Below are positions 9,578 to 63,666 of a stretch of DNA of 64,000 nucleotides, piece after piece. The stretch lies in NCBI RefSeq assembly GCF_014207595.1, contig NZ_JACHGY010000001.1, forward strand, positions 1 to 64,000, in the 5' to 3' direction. The translations under genes were made by a program, and so were the position numbers. The notes under the pieces are model-generated. The model had not been told where the DNA came from and did not search any database. It saw only the letters and a list, made by a program, of their open reading frames with translations. Numbering within the stretch: the stretch's first letter is position 1; every line of letters starts with the position of its first letter. Origin of the DNA: Algisphaera agarilytica. Lineage in GTDB: Bacteria; Planctomycetota; Phycisphaerae; Phycisphaerales; Phycisphaeraceae.

Positions 9578-11860
9578 TTACAGCTTGTTGTGGAACGTGC
9601 GGTTGACCACGTCCTGCTGCTGTTCACGGGTCAGCTTGATGAAGTTTACCGCGTAGCCGCTCACGCGAACGGTCAGTTGCGGGTAGTTTTCGGGGTTCTC
9701 CATGGCATCGATCAACGTCTCGCGATCGAGCACGTTGACGTTCATGTGGAAGCCCGAGGCTCCGAAATACCCGTCCAGGCAGGCGGCGAGGTTGCGGATC
9801 TGGTCCTCACGGTTCGAGCCCAGAGCGCTTGGCAGGATGCTGTTGGTGAGGCTGATGCCGTCTTGAGCGGCCTCGTAGGGCAGCTTGGCCACCGAGAGCG
9901 CCGAGGCCACATAGCCGTTCTCGTCGCGGCCGTGCATCGGGTTGGCACCGGGGGCGAACGGCTCGCCGGTCTTACGCCCATCGGGGGTCGCGCCGGTGGA
10001 CTGGCCGTAGACGACGTTGGACGTGATCGTGAGCACGCTCATGGTGTGGTCCGCGTTGCGGTACGTCGGGTGCTTGCGGAGTTTTTCCATGAAGGTCTCG
10101 ACCAGCCAGGTGGCGTAGCCATCGACATCGTCGTGATTGTTGCCGAAGGCGGGGTAGTCGCCCTGGACCTCGTAGTCGACCACGAGGCCGGTGTCGTCGC
10201 GGACGACCTTGACGCCCGCGTTGCGGATGGCAGACAACGAGTCGGCGACGACCGAGAGCCCGGCGATGCCGAAGGCCATCGTGCGGCGCGGCGAGTAGTC
10301 GTGCAGCGCCATCTCGATGCGTTCGTAGGCGTACTTGTCGTGCATGAAGTGGATGCAGTTCATGGCGTTGACGTAGACACGGGCCAGCCAGTCCATCGCC
10401 TTGTCGTAGCGCTCCATGACCTGGTCGTAGTCGAGCACGTCGCCCTCGATGGGGTCGAACTCGGGCATGACCTGCTTGCCGGTGAGTTCATCCCGGCCGC
10501 CGTTGATCGCGTAGAGCAGGCACTTGGCCAGGTTGACGCGGGCGCCGAAGAACTGCATCTGCTTGCCGACTTCCATGCCGCTGACGCAACAGGCGATCGC
10601 GCTGTCGTCACCGCCGCCGTCCCGCAGCAGGTCGTCGTTTTCGTACTGGATGCTGGAGGTGTCGATACTGACCTTGGCGCAGAACTGCTTAAAGCTCTCG
10701 GGCAGCGCCGTCGACCAGAACACGGTCAGGTTCGGCTCGGGCGCGGGTCCGAGGTTGTACAGCGTCTGCAGGAAGCGGAACGAGTTCTTGGTGACCAGCG
10801 GCCGGCCGTCTTCACCGACGCCGCCGATAGATTCGGTGACCCAGGTCGGGTCGCCGCTGAACAGGTCGTTGTACTCCGGCGTCCGCAGGAAACGCACGAT
10901 ACGCAGCTTGATGACGAAGTCGTCGATCAGTTCCTGGGCTTGCTCTTCGGTGAGCTTGCCGGTTTCCAGGTCGCGCTGGATGTAGATGTCGAAGAAGGTG
11001 CTGACCCGGCCCAGCGACATGGCCGCGCCGTTCTGTTCTTTCACCGCGGCGAGGTAGGCGAAGTAGGTCCACTGCACGGCCTCGCGTGCATCCTTGGCGG
11101 GCTGGGAGATGTCGAAGCCGTAGGCCTCACCCATCTGCTTGAGTTCTTTCAGGGCCTTGATCTGCTCAGAGATTTCTTCGCGGTCGCGGATGACGTCCTC
11201 GGTCGAATGGAGCTCGGCAAGCTGGAGTTTCTCGGATTCTTTCGCTTGGATCAGACGATCCACGCCGTAGAGGGCTACGCGGCGGTAGTCACCGATGATC
11301 CGGCCGCGGCCGTAGGCGTCAGGTAGGCCAGTGACCAGGTGGGCGCTACGGGCCTTGCGGATCTCGGGGGTGTAGACATCGAAGACGCCGTCGTTGTGCG
11401 TCTTGCGGTAGTTGGTGAAGACCTTGGCGACCTCGGGATCGGGTTTGTAGCCATAGGCTTCGAGCGAGCCGACGACCATGCGCCAGCCGCCGTTGGGGAA
11501 GATCGCGCGTTTCAGCGGGGCGTCGGTCTGCAGGCCGACAATCAGCTCGAGGTCCTGGTCGATGTAGCCCGGCTCGTGGGCGGTGATGGACGAAGGGATC
11601 TGGCTGACATCCAGCACGCCCTTCTCACGCTCGATCTTAAAGAGCTCTGACAGCTTTTCCCAGACCTTCGTCGTGCGGGGCGTCGGACTGGCAAGGAAGG
11701 CCTCGGTGCCCGAGTACGGCGAGTAGTTACCACGGATGAAGTCGCGGACATCAATGGATTGCTGCCATGGGCCGGGCGTGAATCCGGTGTGCGGATCGAA
11801 TGCACCGGAGCTGGCTTCGGGGTGAAGAGTGGTGGGTCGGGGCGGGATGGCGGTGCTCAT
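9578..11860 (-). CDS. pflB: Formate C-acetyltransferase (pyruvate formate-lyase)
   Basis: A 760-residue glycyl-radical enzyme converting pyruvate and CoA to acetyl-CoA and formate during fermentation. The catalytic adjacent cysteines are C424 and C425 ([13 protein letters not shown]), and the radical glycine is G735 in RVSGYAV, 26 residues from the end as expected. Length matches E. coli PflB (760). The cytoplasmic enzyme needs the downstream pflA product. The 335-base region upstream is AT-rich with dyads and repeated TATCGGCA motifs, consistent with redox control. A formate/oxalate-type transporter lies nearby on the other strand. Confidence 0.96.
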
Positions 11861-50948: not shown

Positions 50949-51653
50949 TCAAACCGCGTGGCTGCGAGCGTGGAAGATGGCATCGATGATTGCATCCAGG
51001 CCGTCCAGGTGCTTCACGCTGCCCATGACCAGCGGCCCCTCGCCACGCATCTTCACCGCGTCGCTACGCATCACCTCCAGGTCAGCCCCCACGGCCTCGG
51101 CGAGGTCGATCTTGTTGATGACCAAGAGGTCCGACTGCGTGATGCCCGGGCCGCCCTTACGGGGCACCTTGTCGCCGCCCGCGACGTCGATCACGTAGAT
51201 CGTGAAGTCGGCGAGTTCCCGGCTGAAGTGGGCCGCGAGGTTGTCGCCGCCCGATTCGCAGAGCAGCAGTTCGGGGTCGTGCTCGGCGGTGAGCTGTTCG
51301 AGTGCGACCAGGTTGGGCGTCACGTCTTCACGGATCGCGGCGTGCGGGCAACCGCCGGTCTCCACCGCGCGGATGCGGTCGGCGGGGAGCGCGCCCTGCC
51401 GGACTAGGAACTCGGTGTCTTCGCGGGTGAAGATGTCGTTGGTCACCACCGCCATGTTGGTCCGCTCGCGCAACGCTTCGCAGAGCCGCCAGACCAACGC
51501 GGTCTTGCCCGAGCCCACCGGGCCGCCGATGCCCACGGTGAACGCCCGCTGGGTGAAGTCGCGGCCCGAGAGCGCGGCTTCGCGTTCCTCAAACCGGCCG
51601 GGGTAGTCCATGGGTTCGTGGGTGTGGTCGGCGTGCATGTGCATAGGAATCAA
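50949..51653 (-). CDS. ureG: Urease accessory GTPase UreG
   Basis: A 234-residue nickel-insertion GTPase. The P-loop [13 protein letters not shown] is at about 43-55; the nickel-binding CPH motif is in [18 protein letters not shown]. The N-terminus ([14 protein letters not shown]) carries four His in the first 12 residues, a short metal-binding extension not seen in E. coli-type UreG. It lies 29 bases downstream of ureF on the minus strand, away from the structural urease genes at 60-63 kb. It would act with UreD and UreF to load nickel into UreC. Confidence 0.95.
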
Positions 51654-51682: not shown

Positions 51683-52351
51683 TCAGCTCTGGAACAATCG
51701 AGAATACAACCGATCTTGCCCCGACTGCAACACGTCCAGCAGCGGGCTGGCCTGACACAGATCGTCCAGCGTCGCATCGAGCGAAGCCGACACCCTCGAA
51801 CGTGCCTCGGAGATCAACGATTGCTGGATCGCCTGCGACTCGAGCGGGCCGATCGCCCCCAGCCGCACCGCGGCGGACAGCGCCGAGCGAACCGTCATGA
51901 ACAGGAAGAGCTCGGCGGAACGCAGGCCGTCCATGCCCAGCATCTGCGCGAGGTAGCCGAACACCGAGGCAAAATGCCCGGGGGTCCGCTCCGCCCGGCA
52001 GGCCTTGACCCACTGGGCAACCTCGGCCTGTTCAAACACACGCGTCGATGCAGAAAGCAACGCCTGGCCCTGGGCCACACTGGCCCGGTGGGCGACGTGG
52101 TTGGTCAGGGTCGCTTCGAGGCGTTGCTCTGCCTCGTGGAACCGCTCCGGCTCGCTCGCCACCGTCAGCACCGCCGGCAAGGCTCCCACCACAGTTTGGT
52201 TGATCAACGCTTTAGTCGCGGACTCCAGACTCGCCCGGTCGCGGATCAGCCCGGCCTGCACCGCCGCCTCGAAACCCGAGGAGTGGGCGAACCCGCCTGC
52301 GGGGAACGCCGAGTCAGCCAGTTGCCAGGTCGTCCAGTCCAAGTCCAGCAT
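51683..52351 (-). CDS. ureF: Urease accessory protein UreF
   Basis: A 222-residue all-helical urease maturation factor, seen in WQLADSAFPAGGFAHSSGFEAA and GYLAQMLGMDGLRSAELFLF, typical of UreF. With UreD and UreG it forms the complex that activates urease. The start at 52351 (MLDLDW) gives the family's usual length; the open frame upstream enters the shared control region. Co-transcribed with ureG and divergent from the porin-urt genes, whose sigma-54 promoter lies in the same intergenic region. Confidence 0.92.
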   Translation of the reverse strand: MLDLDWTTWQLADSAFPAGGFAHSSGFEAAVQAGLIRDRASLESATKALINQTVVGALPAVLTVASEPERFHEAEQRLEATLTNHVAHRASVAQGQALLSASTRVFEQAEVAQWVKACRAERTPGHFASVFGYLAQMLGMDGLRSAELFLFMTVRSALSAAVRLGAIGPLESQAIQQSLISEARSRVSASLDATLDDLCQASPLLDVLQSGQDRLYSRLFQS

Positions 52352-52813
52352 GGATGAGGTTATACACGCAATCCGCTGGACAAATGAGGCGGGAGAATAT
52401 TTTGCGGATGCGCTTTTTTTAGGCACTCATGGTCCGGGTAACAACCCCCTGCCTGAAATCAGGGCACAAAGTCTCTCCACCCCGTTCAGCTCTGAATATT
52501 CTTCAACAAAAACTAATCCGGAACCTCAAAACGAGAAAAATAGCTGCGCTTCATAGCTAATTCTGCGTTAACTGGTTTCATCGGCCATCCCCAAGCTCCG
52601 GATAAATCAACGCGTTATCGGCTCACACCTCGCAACTGGCACATGCTTTGCCATGTGTGAGTTACGCAGTGCTTCGTTGCAAGCCCAGCGTACCGCTAGA
52701 TGTTGCGTGAGCACCGTGCCACGCACAGGTTTCGAGCTGTGACACAGAACGGTCTTTGGTTGGCCGGCCACAGCATTACACACACTTATTCGGTGTTTAG
52801 GAGAGTCTTTTAG
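52352..52813. promoter_or_regulatory. Divergent control region of the urea island
   Basis: This 462-base gap between ureF (minus) and the porin gene (plus) holds no convincing gene. It contains the sigma-54 promoter listed separately, and an 18-base dyad (52641-52658, CACATG-N6-CATGTG) overlapping it. No clear NtrC site was recognised. The 5' half is AT-rich and probably carries the ureFG promoter on the other strand. Confidence 0.55.
52637..52652 (+). promoter_or_regulatory. Sigma-54 (-24/-12) promoter upstream of the porin gene
   Basis: tggcac-atgct-ttgcc: GG at 52638-52639 and GC at 52650-52651 are exactly 10 bases apart, as required for sigma-54, and the -24 half is a perfect TGGCAC. It points toward the porin gene, whose start is 163 bases from the -12 element. 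Sigma-54 promoters need an enhancer-binding activator such as NtrC, consistent with nitrogen control. Confidence 0.75.
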
Positions 52814-55277: not shown

Positions 55278-55337
55278 CCCGACCATCGCCCCACTGTTTC
55301 ACTCTTGCCGGCACGCCGGCTCCACACGGATCACGAT

Positions 55338-58300
55338 TTGAAGTTCTCCACGGCCCCCCACCGCCTTGCGACCCGGACCCACTCGCAACGCAAAGCTGGC
55401 GTCTATTCGCTGTTGCTCCTGCTCGTCGCAACCGCCCTGTTCGTGTTCAGCGGCACGTACTCACCGACCGCGACCGCGCAGGACACGCCCGCTGAAGAAC
55501 CCGCTGCCGCCGAGGCGTCGACGGATGAACTCAGCGACGACGAGCTGCTCGAGCTCGCGGTTAACCTCGGCAGTAGCAAGCTCGCCTCCGAAACCGTCGA
55601 ACAACTCATCGGCATGGGCGATGCCCGGGTGCTGCGGCTCTTTGAACGCCTGATGGCCAACGAGCTCCGCACCGTGGGCGACCGATTGGTCTGGGAGCCG
55701 CCCGCGTTGGAAGGTGAATCCCCCGCCGAGGCCGGGGCACCGCTGCTGCTCAACGCGGTGGCTGCCGAGCGTGAGCTGCTGGACCTGGAAACACTCAAAG
55801 TCGACGGCGAGCTGCCCAAGTCCAAGAGCTTCCGTGGCAACCGTAAGGCCCGGAAGGTCATCCAACAGCGTCTTTCACTGATGGGGCTCGACCTCAAAGA
55901 CCCCGTGATCCGCGAAGAGTCGGCCCGCAACGTCGGCAACAAACGCCAGCTCGAAGCCCTGCCCAAGCTTCTCGAGCTGGCAGAGAACGATCCGGAAAAA
56001 GCCATCCGCCGTACCGCGGAAGAAAGCGCCAACCTCATCGTCGCCAGCGGCACCGACCCCGAAGCAGACGAAGCCACCCGCGTCGCCGCGATCGCGGGAC
56101 TGGGCGAGCTCAAGAGCATCCGCGGCCTGGACGTGCTCAAGGAAGTCATCAACAGCGACGACTCCACCCCCGCCATGGTCGCGGCGGCCGAGAAATCCAC
56201 CGACCAGATCAACCGCCACATCTCGGTGACGAACTGGATCAAGAACGCCTTCTTCGGCATGTCGGCCGGCTCGATTTTTGTCCTCGTCGCGCTCGGCCTG
56301 GCGATCACGTTCGGCCTGATGGGCGTGATCAACATGGCCCACGGCGAGATGCTCATGATCGGAGCCGTCGCGACCTGGGCCTGCTTCGAGTTCCTCAGCA
56401 CCAACCCGTTCTGGAGCGGCGACCCGATGGCCGCCCTCGGCCTGAGCCCGAACTGGGCGTACGTCGTCGCGTTCTTCATGGCGTTTACCATCGCGGCGAT
56501 CACGGGCCTGCTGGTCGAAGTCTCGATCGTCCGCTTCCTCTACAAACGGCCGCTCGACTCGCTGCTCGCCACCATCGGCGTGAGCTACATCCTCATCCAG
56601 CTCGTGCGGAACTGGAAAGGCGACAACCTGCCGCTCACCCGCCCCGACTGGTCGGCGGGCGGCTGGGAGGTCTATCCCGACATCGTGCTGGGCTACAGCC
56701 GGATGTTCATCATCGCCCTGACCGCTTTCTGCCTCGCGGCGGTGGTGGTCATCTTCCGCTTCACCAAGATCGGGCTCATGGTGCGGGCGACCGTGCAGAA
56801 CCGGGCGATGGCCCAGACGCTGGGCGTCAATACGCGTGTCGTCGACATGTTCTGCTTTGCCTTCGGCGCCGGGCTGGCGGGGCTCGCGGGCTTTGGGGTC
56901 TATCTCATCGGCAACACCACCCCGCAGATGGGCCAGGGCTACATCGTCGATTCGTTCCTGGTCGTCGTGGTCGGCGGCGTCGGCAAGCTGCTTGGCGTGG
57001 TCATCTCCGGGTTGGGGCTCGGCACGCTCGAAAAAATCCTCGAGCCGATCGTGCTGATCGAAGAACCTATCCGCCTGTTCGATTCGACCTGGGCGAAGGT
57101 CGCGGTGCTGTTGCTAGTGGTGCTGTTCATTCAGCGCCGGCCGTCGGGCCTCTTCCCCGAGAAAGGGCGTGCAGCCAGCCAAGCCACCGGCAAAGACGAC
57201 ATGCCCTGGCTCGGCCGACCGACTTGGCGGACCGACGCGATCCTCGGCGGGCTGCTTGTCATCGTTGGCTTGGTCGTGATCCCGGCTCTGTATCTATCGG
57301 GGAACATGAGCATCGACACGCTCAACCGCTACGGCTACTTCACCTGTTTCGCCATCTGTGCGGTGGGCCTCGACTTGATCTGGGGCTACATGGGCGTATT
57401 GAGCCTGTGCCAGTTCCTGTTCTTCGCATTTGGCTCGTATTGCATGGGCTTCTATCTGATTAACATCGGGCCCAAAGACGTGAACGGCATCCCCGAATGC
57501 CTGGCCTACGTGATGTCCGATGTGGCCAACCCCACGCCGCCTTGGTACCTGGCGTATTTCCAAAACCTCGGCGTGTCGTTCCTTTTGGCGATGCTGCTCC
57601 CCGGATTGGTCGCGGCCGTCATTGGCGTGATGATGTTCCGCAGCCGGGTCAAGGGCGTCTACTTCGCCATCCTCACCCAGGCCATCACGGTGATCGCTTG
57701 GCGGGTGTTCCAGAAAAACGACTTGAAGATGGGCGGCACCAACGGCATCCGTGTCACCTTTAGCGAAGAGCTGTTCGGCAACCCGATCGCGTTCCAGGAA
57801 GGCCTGTCGCTGGCCTCGCAAACCCGATTCAAGCTGTACATCCTCTCGGTGATTGCTTTGATCGTGACGCTGATTGTCGCCAAGGCGATGGTGCGTTCGG
57901 GCTACGGCCGAATCTTGCTGGCGATCCGCGACGACGAGACGCGCCTGCGTTTTTCGGGCTATCAGCCGTGGGTCTACAAGGCGCTGACCTTTACGGTTGC
58001 GGGCATGATGGCCGGACTCGGCGGGGCGCTGTACTTCCCGCAGAAAGGCATCATCACGCCCACCGAGATGGAGCCGTCGTGGTCGATCCTCGTGGTGGCC
58101 TGGGTCGCCTTCGGCGGGCGTGGCACATTGTGGGGCGCGGTGCTCGGGGCGCTGGCGATCAGCCAGATCTACAACTTCATGACTTCCGAGGCTCCGGAGT
58201 ATTGGATGTATGTCCTCGGCGGGTTGTTCATCCTCGTGCCGTTGCTGCTGCCCGGCGGGCTGATGAGCATCCCGACGCTGATCGGTAACGGGCTGTCGCG

Positions 58301-58367
58301 TTCCAAGCCGGGCGGCACGCCACCGCCACCCGCGGTGCCCGCCTCCAACACGGGAGGTGCCGCGTAA
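55338..58367 (+). CDS. urtBC: Fused urea ABC transporter permease UrtB-UrtC
   Basis: A protein of about 1009 residues that joins both urea permease subunits. A signal-like hydrophobic segment is followed by an extracytoplasmic region with HEAT-like helices (about 60-285, e.g. DPVIREESARNVGNKRQLEA), the UrtB membrane domain (about 300-595: GSIFVLVALGLAITFGLMGV, INMAHGEML), a cytoplasmic linker, and the UrtC membrane domain (about 625-985: AICAVGLDLIWGYMGVLSLC, GGTNGIRVTF). In most bacteria urtB and urtC are separate. No stop codon or start motif separates the halves. The start is a TTG (55338; TTG 55305 is possible). Its stop overlaps the ATG of urtD by 1 base. Confidence 0.93.
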   Translation: MKFSTAPHRLATRTHSQRKAGVYSLLLLLVATALFVFSGTYSPTATAQDTPAEEPAAAEASTDELSDDELLELAVNLGSSKLASETVEQLIGMGDARVLRLFERLMANELRTVGDRLVWEPPALEGESPAEAGAPLLLNAVAAERELLDLETLKVDGELPKSKSFRGNRKARKVIQQRLSLMGLDLKDPVIREESARNVGNKRQLEALPKLLELAENDPEKAIRRTAEESANLIVASGTDPEADEATRVAAIAGLGELKSIRGLDVLKEVINSDDSTPAMVAAAEKSTDQINRHISVTNWIKNAFFGMSAGSIFVLVALGLAITFGLMGVINMAHGEMLMIGAVATWACFEFLSTNPFWSGDPMAALGLSPNWAYVVAFFMAFTIAAITGLLVEVSIVRFLYKRPLDSLLATIGVSYILIQLVRNWKGDNLPLTRPDWSAGGWEVYPDIVLGYSRMFIIALTAFCLAAVVVIFRFTKIGLMVRATVQNRAMAQTLGVNTRVVDMFCFAFGAGLAGLAGFGVYLIGNTTPQMGQGYIVDSFLVVVVGGVGKLLGVVISGLGLGTLEKILEPIVLIEEPIRLFDSTWAKVAVLLLVVLFIQRRPSGLFPEKGRAASQATGKDDMPWLGRPTWRTDAILGGLLVIVGLVVIPALYLSGNMSIDTLNRYGYFTCFAICAVGLDLIWGYMGVLSLCQFLFFAFGSYCMGFYLINIGPKDVNGIPECLAYVMSDVANPTPPWYLAYFQNLGVSFLLAMLLPGLVAAVIGVMMFRSRVKGVYFAILTQAITVIAWRVFQKNDLKMGGTNGIRVTFSEELFGNPIAFQEGLSLASQTRFKLYILSVIALIVTLIVAKAMVRSGYGRILLAIRDDETRLRFSGYQPWVYKALTFTVAGMMAGLGGALYFPQKGIITPTEMEPSWSILVVAWVAFGGRGTLWGAVLGALAISQIYNFMTSEAPEYWMYVLGGLFILVPLLLPGGLMSIPTLIGNGLSRSKPGGTPPPPAVPASNTGGAA

Positions 58368-59979: not shown

Positions 59980-60861
59980 ATGCTCAGCGCCACCGCCCCG
60001 CCCGATCACGACTCAACGCCCCGCGCGCTAGCCGAGGCGGACCTGTCGAAGCCGGGCCGGGGGCACGTCGCGTTCGAGCACGTGGCGGGCAAGACCGCGA
60101 TCACGCGCTGCCGTGCCGCGGCGCCGCTGAAATTCCTCACGCCGTCGCGGCGCGGCGACGCCGCCTGGGCCTACGCCAACACGTTCGGCGGCGGGCTCGT
60201 GGCGGGCGACACGATCGACCTGTCGCTCGACGTCGGCGACCACGCCACCGCGGTGCTGACGACGCAGGCCTCGACCAAAGTCTTCCACCAGCAAGACGGG
60301 CTCGGCGCCCAGCAGCACCTCACCGCTACGCTCGGCGAACAGGCAAAACTGCTCGTGCTGCCCGATCCGTTGACATGCTTCGCCGACGCGATCTACCGCC
60401 AGACCCAGCGTTTTGAACTAACGTCTTCGTCCTCATTGGTGTTGCTCGACTGGTTCACCGCCGGGCGCAGCGCCTCGGGTGAGAGCTGGGAATTTGCGGA
60501 CTACCGCAGTCTCAACACCGTGCATGTCGATGGCCGGGAGATCGTGTTCGACCAGACACGGCTGACCGCCGACACGCTCGCCGGCACCGGGCCGATGTGC
60601 GTCGGGCCTTATCAGGTGGTGGCAAACCTTTTCCTGGTCGGCCCCGGCGTGAGCGAAGGGATCGACCAACTCGAACAGTGGATCGACAAGCGGCCCATCC
60701 ACGACGAGTCGCGCTACCTCGCGGGCTTCAGTAGCGCAGACTGGGGCGGGGTCTTGCGCTTGATCGGGCGAAGCACACAGACGTTAACCGGGCTGCTCAA
60801 ACAACAGCTATACTTCACCCACCCCTGGATCGGTGGGAGTCCATGGGACCGCAAGTGGTAG
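59980..60861 (+). CDS. ureD: Urease accessory protein UreD (UreH)
   Basis: A 293-residue urease maturation scaffold. Family features: GHVAFEHVAGKTAITRCRAA, KFLTPSRRGDAAWAYANTFG, GGLVAGDTIDLSLDVGDHAT, TTQASTKVFHQ. It binds apo-urease and recruits UreF and UreG. Between urtE and ureAB; no gap large enough for a separate promoter. Confidence 0.94.
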   Translation: MLSATAPPDHDSTPRALAEADLSKPGRGHVAFEHVAGKTAITRCRAAAPLKFLTPSRRGDAAWAYANTFGGGLVAGDTIDLSLDVGDHATAVLTTQASTKVFHQQDGLGAQQHLTATLGEQAKLLVLPDPLTCFADAIYRQTQRFELTSSSSLVLLDWFTAGRSASGESWEFADYRSLNTVHVDGREIVFDQTRLTADTLAGTGPMCVGPYQVVANLFLVGPGVSEGIDQLEQWIDKRPIHDESRYLAGFSSADWGGVLRLIGRSTQTLTGLLKQQLYFTHPWIGGSPWDRKW

Positions 60862-60878: not shown

Positions 60879-61643
60879 ATGCATTTGACGCCGCGCGAGA
60901 TCGAAAAACTGATGCTGCACAACGCGGGCTTCGTCGCCCAGAAGCGCCTCGCCCGCGGATGCAAGCTCAACCAGCCCGAGACGGTCGCGCTCATCGCCAC
61001 GGTCGTGATGGAGTTGATCCGTGACGGCAAGCGTGTCGCCGAGTGCATGGACCTCGGCCGGCAGATGCTGGGGCGTCGCCAAGTGATGCCGGGCATCGCC
61101 GAGATGCTGCACGACGTGCAGGTCGAAGCGACTTTCCCCGACGGCAGCAAGCTCGTGACCGTGCACCACCCCATCGCCGCAGAAGACGGCAACCTCGAAC
61201 TCGCGCTCTACGGCAGCTTCCTGCCGGTGCCCGATCTTTCCGTCTTCGGCAACGCGTCCACCGCCACCGACAGCGCCCCCGGCCAGGTCACCGCGCAGGC
61301 GGGCGACATCGAACTCAACGCTGGCCGTGAAACCGTATCGATCGACGTGACCAACACCGGCGACCGCCCGATCCAGGTCGGCAGCCACTACCACTTCATC
61401 GAGACCAACGCGGGGCTGACCTTCGACCGCAGCGCTTCGTACGGCAAACGGCTGGACATACCGGCCGGCACCGCGGTACGTTTCGAGCCGGGCGAGACCA
61501 AGACCGTCACCCTCGTCGCCATCGCCGGCGACCAGATTATCCGCGGCGGCAACAACCTTGCCGACGGTCAAGTCGACTCCGCCCAACAAAGTGAAGCCCT
61601 CAAACGTGTCGAAGCCCAGGGCTTCGGCAACGCAACCAACTAA
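60879..61643 (+). CDS. ureAB: Fused urease gamma-beta subunit
   Basis: A 254-residue protein combining UreA (about 1-100, [40 protein letters not shown]) and UreB (about 125-240, [28 protein letters not shown]). Such fusions are known, for example in Helicobacter. It associates with UreC to form the (AB-C)n urease. GAGGAG precedes the ATG. Confidence 0.96.
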
Positions 61644-61679
61644 CCCCTGTTTATTTCCTCTTACCCCAAAGGTAAAACC

Positions 61680-61832
61680 ATGCTTCAAGCTCTGACCACC
61701 CTCGCCCACGAAGGCCACGACCACAGCTACTTCCTCGGCGGTGAACTGCACCACTGGCTCTGGATCGCTGCAGGCGTCGCTGCCGTTGCTGTCCTTGTCG
61801 CGCCCGCAGTCCGCCGTTGGTTCGGCCGCTGA
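61680..61832 (+). CDS. Small His-rich membrane peptide in the urease operon
   Basis: A 50-codon gene between ureAB and ureC, too short for usual gene finders. Its ATG has AAAGG 7 bases upstream and lies 36 bases after the ureAB stop. The N-terminal half is rich in His (AHEGHDHSYF, ELHHW; five His in 25 residues), then a single membrane helix (about 26-46, WLWIAAGVAAVAVLVAPAV) and a basic end (RRWFGR). The His cluster suggests nickel binding. I know of no named family; position, ribosome binding site and composition support a real gene. Confidence 0.7.
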   Translation: MLQALTTLAHEGHDHSYFLGGELHHWLWIAAGVAAVAVLVAPAVRRWFGR

Positions 61833-61850: not shown

Positions 61851-61913
61851 GTAGGGCGGGCACCGCCCACCACGTGATTTCAAAACGGTCGCGGTGGGCA
61901 GTGCCCACCCTAC
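61851..61913. repeat. Inverted repeat between small peptide gene and ureC
   Basis: gtagggcgggcaccgcccacc (61851-61871) pairs with ggtgggcagtgcccaccctac (61893-61913) with two mismatches. Each arm is itself palindromic (gggc-N-gccc), giving a nested hairpin typical of dispersed intergenic repeats. It may also affect translation of ureC, which starts 35 bases later. Confidence 0.7.
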
Positions 61914-61947
61914 AAGGCCCATGGTTAATTCCCAAAGGTTGTAACCC

Positions 61948-63666
61948 ATGCCCTACAACATGCCCCGCGACGCCTACGCCCAGATGTTCGGCCCCACCAC
62001 GGGCGATCTCATGCGGCTGGGCGACACCTCGCTCACCCTCCGCGTTGAGAAAGACCTCACGTCCTACGGCGATGAGTGCAAGTTCGGCGGCGGCAAGGTG
62101 CTCCGCGAAGGCATGGGCCAGCGGGCCGGCGGCGACCCCGATGAAGCGCTCGACTACGTCATCACCAACGCCCTCATCGTCGACTACACCGGCATCTACA
62201 AGGCCGACGTCGGCATCAAGGCGGGGATGATCACGGGCATCGGCAAGGCCGGCAACCCCGACGTCATGCCCGGCGTCACGCCCGGCATGGTCGTGGGCGT
62301 CACCACCGAAGCCATCGCCGGCGAGGGCCACATTCTCACCGCCGGCGGCCTGGACACTCACGTCCACTACATCTGCCCGCAGATCGCCGACGAAGCGATC
62401 GCCTCCGGCCTCACCACGCTTGTCGGCGGAGGCACCGGCCCGGCGACGGGCACCTGCGCCACCACCTGCACGCCCGGCGCGAACAACATCGCGATGATGA
62501 TGCAGGCCGTGGACGACATCCCCATGAACTTCGGCTTCCTGGGCAAAGGCAACACCGCCCTGCCCCAGGGCCTGCCCGAGCAGATCGCCGCCGGCGCGAT
62601 CGGGATGAAGCTCCACGAAGACTGGGGCACCACCCCCGCCGCGATCGACTGCTGCCTCGGCGTGGCCGACGACATGGACGTGCAGGTCTGCATCCACACC
62701 GACACACTCAACGAGTCGGGTTTCGTCGAAGCCTCGATCGCCGCGTTCAAGGGACGCACGATCCACACCTACCACACCGAAGGCGCCGGCGGCGGCCACG
62801 CCCCGGACATCATCAAGGTCTGTGGCGAAGCCAACGTCATCCCGTCCTCGACCAACCCCACCCGGCCGTACACCGTCAACACGATGGATGAGCACCTGGA
62901 CATGCTCATGGTCTGCCACCACCTCGACAAGAACCTACCCGAGGATGTCGCCTTCGCCGAGTCGCGCATCCGTGGCGAGACGATCATGGCCGAGGACATC
63001 CTGCACGACCTGGGCGCGTTCTCGATCATGGGCAGCGACAGCCAGGCCATGGGCCGCGTCGGCGAAGTCATCACCCGCACCTGGCAGACCGCCAGCAAGA
63101 TGAAAGACCAGCGTGGCACGCTCGGCGGCGACACCGAAGGCCAGGGCGACAACGAGCGCATCAAACGCTACGTCGCCAAGTACACCATCAACCCCGCGAT
63201 CGCCCACGGCATGTCGCACCTCATCGGCAGCATCGAGGTCGGCAAGCTCGCCGACCTGGTGCTCTGGAAACCCGCGTTCTTCGGGGCCAAGCCCGAGATC
63301 GTGATCAAGGGCGGCCACATCGCCTGGGCCCAGATGGGTGATCCCAACGCCTCGATCCCCACGCCCCAGGCCGTGTACATGCGTCCGCAGTTCGCGGCGT
63401 TGGGTAAGGCGGTCGGCCACACCTCGTTCAGCTTCGTCAGCCAGGCCGCCCAGGACGCCGACGTCCGCGAGGCCTATGGCCTGTCCAAGCGGACCGCCGC
63501 GGTGAAAAACTGCCGCAACATCGGCAAGGCCGACATGAAGCTCAACAGCACCGCTCCGAATATCGAAGTTGACCCGGAGACCTACAAAGTCACCGCCGAC
63601 GGCGAGTTCCTGCAGTGCGAGCCCGCCGAGTCGCTGCCGCTGGCTCAGAAATACTTCCTGTTCTGA
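61948..63666 (+). CDS. ureC: Urease alpha subunit (catalytic)
   Basis: A 572-residue nickel enzyme hydrolysing urea to ammonia and carbamate. All active-site residues are present: H138 and H140 ([10 protein letters not shown]), the carbamylated Lys K221 (GMKLHEDWG), H250 (CIHTDTLNE), H276 ([11 protein letters not shown]), the flap Cys C323 and His (MVCHHLDKN) and D364 ([10 protein letters not shown]). Length matches the family (about 570). Last gene of the urea island; its start is preceded by AAAGG and an inverted repeat. Confidence 0.98.

Follow-up and report, generated by a model that had tools for sequence, protein, structure and literature searches.

The urease genes of Algisphaera agarilytica enclose a short open reading frame (ORF), and the question raised by this locus is whether the ORF is a gene and, if so, what its product could contribute to a urease. 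The stretch of DNA analysed here (the window) is 64,000 nucleotides long.

The small gene and its place in the urease operon

The ORF is located at positions 61680-61832 of the forward strand, starts with ATG and encodes a peptide of 50 residues (MLQALTTLAHEGHDHSYFLGGELHHWLWIAAGVAAVAVLVAPAVRRWFGR). It lies between the fused ureAB gene (gamma and beta subunits, 60879-61643; Pfam Urease_gamma, 6.5e-46, and Urease_beta, 5.6e-45) and ureC (alpha subunit, 61948-63666; identified by its ORF and by Pfam). The ureD gene (59980-60861; Pfam UreD, 1.3e-54), ureAB, the small gene and ureC are all on this one strand. The sequence AAAGG (61668-61672), resembling a ribosome binding site, is found seven bases before the ATG. 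The 12 in-frame codons between the stop of ureAB and this ATG include no ATG, GTG or TTG.

The peptide has five His residues (H10, H13, H15, H24 and H25) within residues 10-25 (61707-61754), followed by one predicted membrane helix (about residues 27-45, 61758-61814) and a basic C-terminus, RRWFGR. The helix corresponds to the single hydrophobic stretch of the peptide, with a hydropathy of 2.02 for the best 19-residue window. Only nine residues precede the first His, so that by eye no cleavable signal peptide is evident, unlike in the relatives described below. The 50-residue frame, the sequence resembling a ribosome binding site and the His-rich N-terminus with its single predicted membrane helix, as given in the preliminary description, are all borne out. 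Clustered His residues, a hydrophobic helix and a basic tail, a criterion fixed after the small ORF was known, are combined in the small gene alone among the 386 ORFs of 35-110 residues in the window, and in none of the 6854 ORFs of ten triplet-shuffled windows.

The ureG gene (50949-51653; tblastn identity 59-65%, and ORF) and a probable ureF (51683-52426; tblastn, and ORF) are on the reverse strand. UreG has a His-rich stretch at its N-terminus. By eye, an ORF of 1020 residues (55305-58367) resembles two fused permeases of a urea ABC transporter, and the transporter genes read in this way are directly upstream of the urease genes.

Conservation, selection and family membership

Homologs are found in the same ureAB-ureC gap of both congeners examined. 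That of G001 has 56 residues from its likely start and was found by the search; that of G002 has 57 residues and was found by reading the gap, the search having missed it. A third homolog, of 67 residues (E 7.9e-7), is present in G005, a member of the same family, at 1122 kb, apart from ureAB (1450 kb) and ureC (1617 kb). The urease genes of G005 are scattered, with ureD and ureAB far from ureC and the small-peptide homolog at a third place. In the four-row alignment of the window peptide with these homologs, all five His residues are invariant, as are A9, G12, G21, W28 and A37. By eye, each of the three homologs has a signal peptide ending in AxA ahead of the first His.

The small gene of G001 and G002 is under purifying selection. 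The comparison gives pS of 0.52, pN of 0.19 and dN/dS of about 0.25 (Fisher p = 1.5e-4), with 13, 11 and 22 differences at the first, second and third codon positions. It is hardly credible that the ORF is a non-coding, chance frame in a GC-rich spacer. Short ORFs are abundant, as the 386 in the window illustrate, but chance does not account for homologs at the same place, for this dN/dS or for invariant His residues; the selection between the congeners and the absence of the anatomy from the shuffled ORFs lead us to reject this explanation. The ORF at 61680-61832 is a true gene.

The same alignment bears on the possibility that the peptide is a structural or anchoring partner, tethering urease, or else an accessory complex, to the membrane close to the urea transporter, or that its His residues sense ammonia or pH. 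The position of the gene among the subunit genes, and the putative urea transporter genes directly upstream, would suit such a role. However, the conserved residues are His residues in the predicted outer part of the peptide, not in its cytoplasmic tail, and we consider a role of this kind quite unlikely.

The distribution of the gene is narrow. Among 19 Phycisphaerae urease loci, the peptide is found in three, all from the genus, and the position after ureAB is seen only there. No ORF of this anatomy was found in the other 16 loci (scanned with flanks of about 1.5 kb, contig ends permitting), which include one without a parsed ureAB end (L024) and that of G005 (L023), where ureC is elsewhere. 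The preliminary description had looked to conservation of the frame in related urease operons; such a frame is present in the same gap of the two congeners and was not found in the 16 other loci. Scans with the peptide alone, confirmed by tblastn, gave no relative in the viral contig or genome contig collections. A profile of the four planctomycete peptides (A1) gave strong matches only to the window genome and G005 among 298 genomes of the class, with seven more weak matches (E 3.6e-4 to 0.008). Among 392 genomes of the phylum, it matched five at E up to 1e-3: the window genome, G005, L156, L157 and L158. Those in L156 and L157 are freestanding planctomycete look-alikes with no urease gene within 1.5 kb, and that in L158 is the N-terminal part of a genuine HupE/UreJ.

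The window peptide belongs to none of the families tested. It has no match to Pfam or to NCBIfam at E up to 10, and NCBIfam gives only weak, scattered matches to the relatives and to the alphaproteobacterial peptides described below. Membership of HupE/UreJ is rejected (no PF04955 match at E up to 10), as is membership of DUF6732 (no PF20506 match, the three relatives being below the cut-off). The earlier statement that no family matches is therefore correct for the window peptide itself, but DUF6732 is the best Pfam match of the three relatives, with 21.0 (G002), 19.3 (G001) and 14.9 (G005) bits against a cut-off of 27, which indicates that the anatomy is not unique.

Small peptides in other urease operons and a possible link to HupE/UreJ

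Peptides of the same anatomy are found in another part of the urease operon in Alphaproteobacteria. Four annotated plasmid urease loci were compared; hypothetical proteins of 52 and 65 residues are located between ureA and ureB in Ruegeria and Sulfitobacter, and a full HupE/UreJ is found there in Paracoccus. Alphaproteobacterial loci were then counted, 84 in all, including 80 fetched by UreA. The ureA-ureB slot holds a peptide of 49-88 residues in 23 loci, HupE/UreJ in 14, and neither in 47 (adjacent genes, other genes or, in two, no ureB call). The slot peptides begin with a stretch resembling a signal peptide; they carry His residues (consensus AHxGxHLHPH) and one helix, and they usually end in a basic tail. 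The slot also has other occupants: a membrane protein of about 90 residues, poor in His and unrelated to these peptides, in three Rhodobacteraceae loci (L105, L111, L124), and a Cys-rich protein of about 80-110 residues (LRPNCECCD...) in six loci, mostly of Rhizobiales (L109, L113, L119, L131, L137, L144).

When 149 genomes from a single family were searched with a profile built from 22 of the 23 slot peptides, 76 of them matched at E up to 1e-3. Of the best 30 loci among these matches, 28 have the peptide between ureA and ureB, two of the 28 being from genomes that also supplied profile rows. The two loci outside the slot are L163 and L178. In L163 (1031-1660), a slot-type peptide is beside an arginase-family gene (3e-77) and a very His-rich protein of 153 residues, possibly, as speculation, another nickel enzyme system.

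The small gene overlaps the start of ureB by four bases in 20 of the 23 loci and by one base in two. This arrangement fits translational coupling and raises the main rival explanation, a nascent-chain metal sensor acting in cis, in which metal bound to the His stretch during export would slow translation and tune the next urease gene. Four-base overlaps are, however, common between ordinary operon genes. In the window, a strong hairpin is predicted between the small gene and ureC (61851-61913, forward strand; fold of -45 kcal/mol, z of -7.4). It is a near-perfect inverted repeat, REP- or MITE-like, and its core motif occurs once in the window; the inverted-repeat finder, at its settings, reported nothing in this spacer, although the fold gives the hairpin. 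The hairpin would suit a sensor, but it stops at 61913 and leaves the ribosome site of ureC uncovered (AAAGG, 61934-61938), and none was seen in the spacers of the two congeners. A precedent exists in CutF of Rhodobacter capsulatus, a small exported metal-binding protein with copper-dependent control in cis of the next gene (PMC9973294). Proteins of this kind (DUF2946) resemble the window peptide in being encoded just 5' of a metalloenzyme gene, and are described as having a CxxxC motif and a proline-rich C-terminus (PMC9973294). Both are missing from the window peptide, which has no Cys and no Pro-rich end. Together with the end of the hairpin before the ureC ribosome site, this argues against a straight copy of CutF, and we regard a sensor in cis as rather improbable.

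HupE/UreJ proteins have been described as Ni/Co transporters by comparative genomics (PMC2667541), and the presence of HupE/UreJ in the same slot suggests a link to the small peptides. A strict swap of one for the other at the genome level is weakened by the counts: among 50 of the 80 alphaproteobacterial genomes, strong PF04955 matches (E below 1e-20) are found in 5 of 21 with a slot peptide and in 6 of 19 with neither in the slot, so that a small slot peptide does not exclude UreJ genome-wide. Of 19 Phycisphaerae genomes with urease, 9 have a PF04955 match at E up to 0.01, none of the four with the small peptide and 9 of the 15 without it (7 of these 15 strong). With Fisher p of 0.09 (0.25 for strong matches only), exclusion of UreJ in this class is a hint and not a result. 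In six genomes (G024, G116, G143, G173, G179, G199), the coordinates place the UreJ gene no more than about 2 kb from the beta-subunit domain.

Some Phycisphaerae UreJ N-termini are very like the window peptide. An example is that of L147 (MNILAHAGHDHSG; MNILAHAGHDHSGIVSGLLHPLGGIDHLLAM). With an HMM of 19 UreJ N-termini and shuffles that preserve the signal peptide and the first His, the four planctomycete peptides give uncorrected p values of 0.035 (window peptide), 0.052, 0.032 and 0.021. Three slot peptides are also above their shuffles (L100, L101 and L117; p of 0.001, 0.034 and 0.006). The motif HX5DH of the first UreJ helix is present in the UreJ set of this analysis, and its spacing is found in the slot peptide of L100. 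It is absent from the window peptide, which has GGELHHW at that place. Moreover, L112 encodes a UreJ-like peptide of 64 residues with one helix (10171-10365) directly after ureG. The peptide contains GHPVLGVDHLL (motif HPxxGxDH) and stops after RRR. With two UreJ queries, tblastn matched only this segment of the locus (best 9e-4), the long ORF that follows has the opposite orientation, and no further UreJ was found behind the peptide. L112 and the other mini-UreJ forms indicate that one-helix UreJ derivatives exist beside ureases, in at least single genomes.

These forms would also be expected if the small gene were a remnant of UreJ, a permease that was lost except for its first helix, which is kept by chance or for operon spacing and has no metal role of its own. 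The UreJ-like motifs of L100, L112 and L117 are compatible with this explanation, as is the weak resemblance of each of the four planctomycete peptides to the UreJ N-terminus (p of 0.02-0.05, uncorrected). Purifying selection between G001 and G002, the invariant His residues, and the number and uniformity of the alphaproteobacterial slot peptides all speak against a remnant, and make it unlikely.

The DUF6732 family provides a further set of peptides. Of 22 slot peptides, 13 match it at E up to 1, and it is found above its cut-off in 38 of the 149 genomes that were searched with the slot-peptide profile. By an eye count, 14 of the places found in that search are DUF6732 places, two of them below the DUF6732 cut-off. 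In all 30 loci fetched (L189-L218), a CbiX-like gene, called by its match to an 88-residue query, is on the same strand, 200-290 bases downstream of where the DUF6732 match begins. This query matches Pfam CbiX at 4.6e-19 (69.1 bits, cut-off 22), and its nearest NCBIfam models are sirohydrochlorin nickelochelatases, well below their cut-offs. From the CbiX family, the metal of the DUF6732/CbiX-like pair is probably cobalt. The tblastn output for the 30 loci, from an incomplete run, has no urease match. DUF6732 is absent from the openly licensed PubMed Central papers searched.

Homology of the planctomycete, alphaproteobacterial and DUF6732 groups is no more than suggested. With hhalign, the alignments of the first two groups match at 95.5%, but over 23 columns only, which cover the signal peptide and AHxG. 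Against shuffles with this part fixed, the window peptide gives p of 0.39 for the DUF6732 profile and 0.84 for the slot-peptide profile. For DUF6732, the homologs of G002, G001 and G005 give p of 0.012, 0.026 and 0.030; with the slot-peptide profile they do not exceed their shuffles. The shared anatomy fits convergence as well as repeated descent from UreJ-like N-termini.

A candidate role in nickel capture and comparison with known systems

We propose that the small gene may encode a freestanding nickel-capture peptide with a membrane anchor, similar in kind to the HupE/UreJ N-terminus, and give this reading a probability of about one half. The peptide, if translated as the gene suggests, would be anchored in the inner membrane by its single helix. 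Its basic C-terminus suggests a topology with the His stretch (H10, H13, H15, H24, H25) facing the periplasm, where it would bind Ni2+ as the presumed ligand. Nickel could be raised at the membrane in this way, or passed to a putative importer, and the captured metal would allow urease from the same operon to be metallated. The mode of action would be that of the exported His-rich N-terminus of HupE/UreJ, detached from the permease.

Nickel capture at the membrane had been suggested in the preliminary description from a single ORF. The suggestion is partly supported by a genus-conserved operon gene, with homologs in the same gap of the congeners, five invariant His residues and dN/dS of about 0.25, and by peptides of the same anatomy that share a slot with UreJ (23 and 14 of 84 loci, and 28 of the best 30 profile loci). 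The HX5DH motif in L100 and L112, the UreJ start of L147 and the A1 match to the UreJ N-terminus of L158 point in the same direction, and DUF6732, which is followed by a CbiX-like chelatase gene in all 30 loci, provides an independent tie of the anatomy to metal insertion. What the groups most widely have in common is a neighbouring gene that encodes a metal enzyme or serves metal insertion, His residues exported to the membrane, and a single helix; we suggest periplasmic nickel capture that would feed urease maturation. On the other side, the window peptide does no better than shuffles with the DUF6732 and slot profiles, and is weakly above them for the UreJ N-terminus (uncorrected); the hhalign match is confined to the signal peptide and AHxG; UreJ is no rarer in the alphaproteobacterial genomes with the small peptide (5/21 and 6/19), and its absence from the four Phycisphaerae genomes with the peptide has p of 0.09; and the G005 homolog apart from the urease genes, L156 and L157 with no urease nearby and the 16 loci without the peptide also count against metal capture.

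More tentatively, the peptides could form a freestanding, miniature class of metal-capture proteins, with an exported His cluster, one helix and a charged tail, which would have evolved repeatedly or split from HupE/UreJ-type permeases. The metal would match the operon, nickel in the urease operons of Planctomycetes and Alphaproteobacteria and probably cobalt for DUF6732/CbiX, and the window peptide would be the planctomycete urease type. When nickel and cobalt are present only in traces, their delivery to the enzymes that need them is incompletely understood, and a tiny capture peptide whose gene lies among the subunit genes of its target enzyme would, if real, solve the problem very simply. 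The ureA-ureB hypotheticals of marine Alphaproteobacteria and DUF6732, two sets of small proteins that have been overlooked, would then have testable functions. This wider pattern, of urease slot peptides and of DUF6732 before CbiX-like genes, is of more interest than the single ORF.

The slot peptides, annotated as hypothetical, resemble the window peptide in size, His stretch, single helix, basic tail and presence in a urease operon. They differ in having an HLHPH-type motif, a clear signal peptide and another slot, and the similarity is not above shuffles. DUF6732 shares the pattern of a signal peptide, HPGH, a second His group and one helix. It has HPGH and GHxHW with an acidic tail, whereas the window peptide has HEGHDH and HHW with a basic tail; the gene after DUF6732 is CbiX-like in 30 of 30 loci, and the window gene is followed by ureC and is not 5' of a CbiX-like chelatase gene.

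HupE/UreJ (PF04955) has an exported N-terminus with an AHxGH-type His cluster followed by the first helix, and its gene is in or adjoining urease operons; in 14 of 84 loci it fills the ureA-ureB slot. In comparison, UreJ has about 190 residues and several helices, and the window peptide has one helix, no HX5DH and no PF04955 match. CbtB, a cobalt transporter component, is likewise a very small protein with one helix and a His motif; it works with its partner CbtA, and the window peptide matches no Pfam or NCBIfam model.

The anglerases Ang-1 and Ang-2 are described as N-terminal-His domains, fused to HupE/UreJ-2, that bind metals (PMC12537917). The likeness to the window peptide would be in periplasmic metal capture, in an N-terminal His after signal cleavage and in the link to a HupE/UreJ-type permease. 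By eye, the homologs of G001, G002 and G005 fit such a His residue (AxA before H); in the window peptide, no more than nine residues come ahead of the first His. The anglerase domains are folded and fused to the permease (PMC12537917), whereas the window gene, with 50 residues and one helix, encodes neither a folded metal-binding domain nor a permease. For the capture proposed here, the anglerase work would be the closest tested precedent among the studies considered here.
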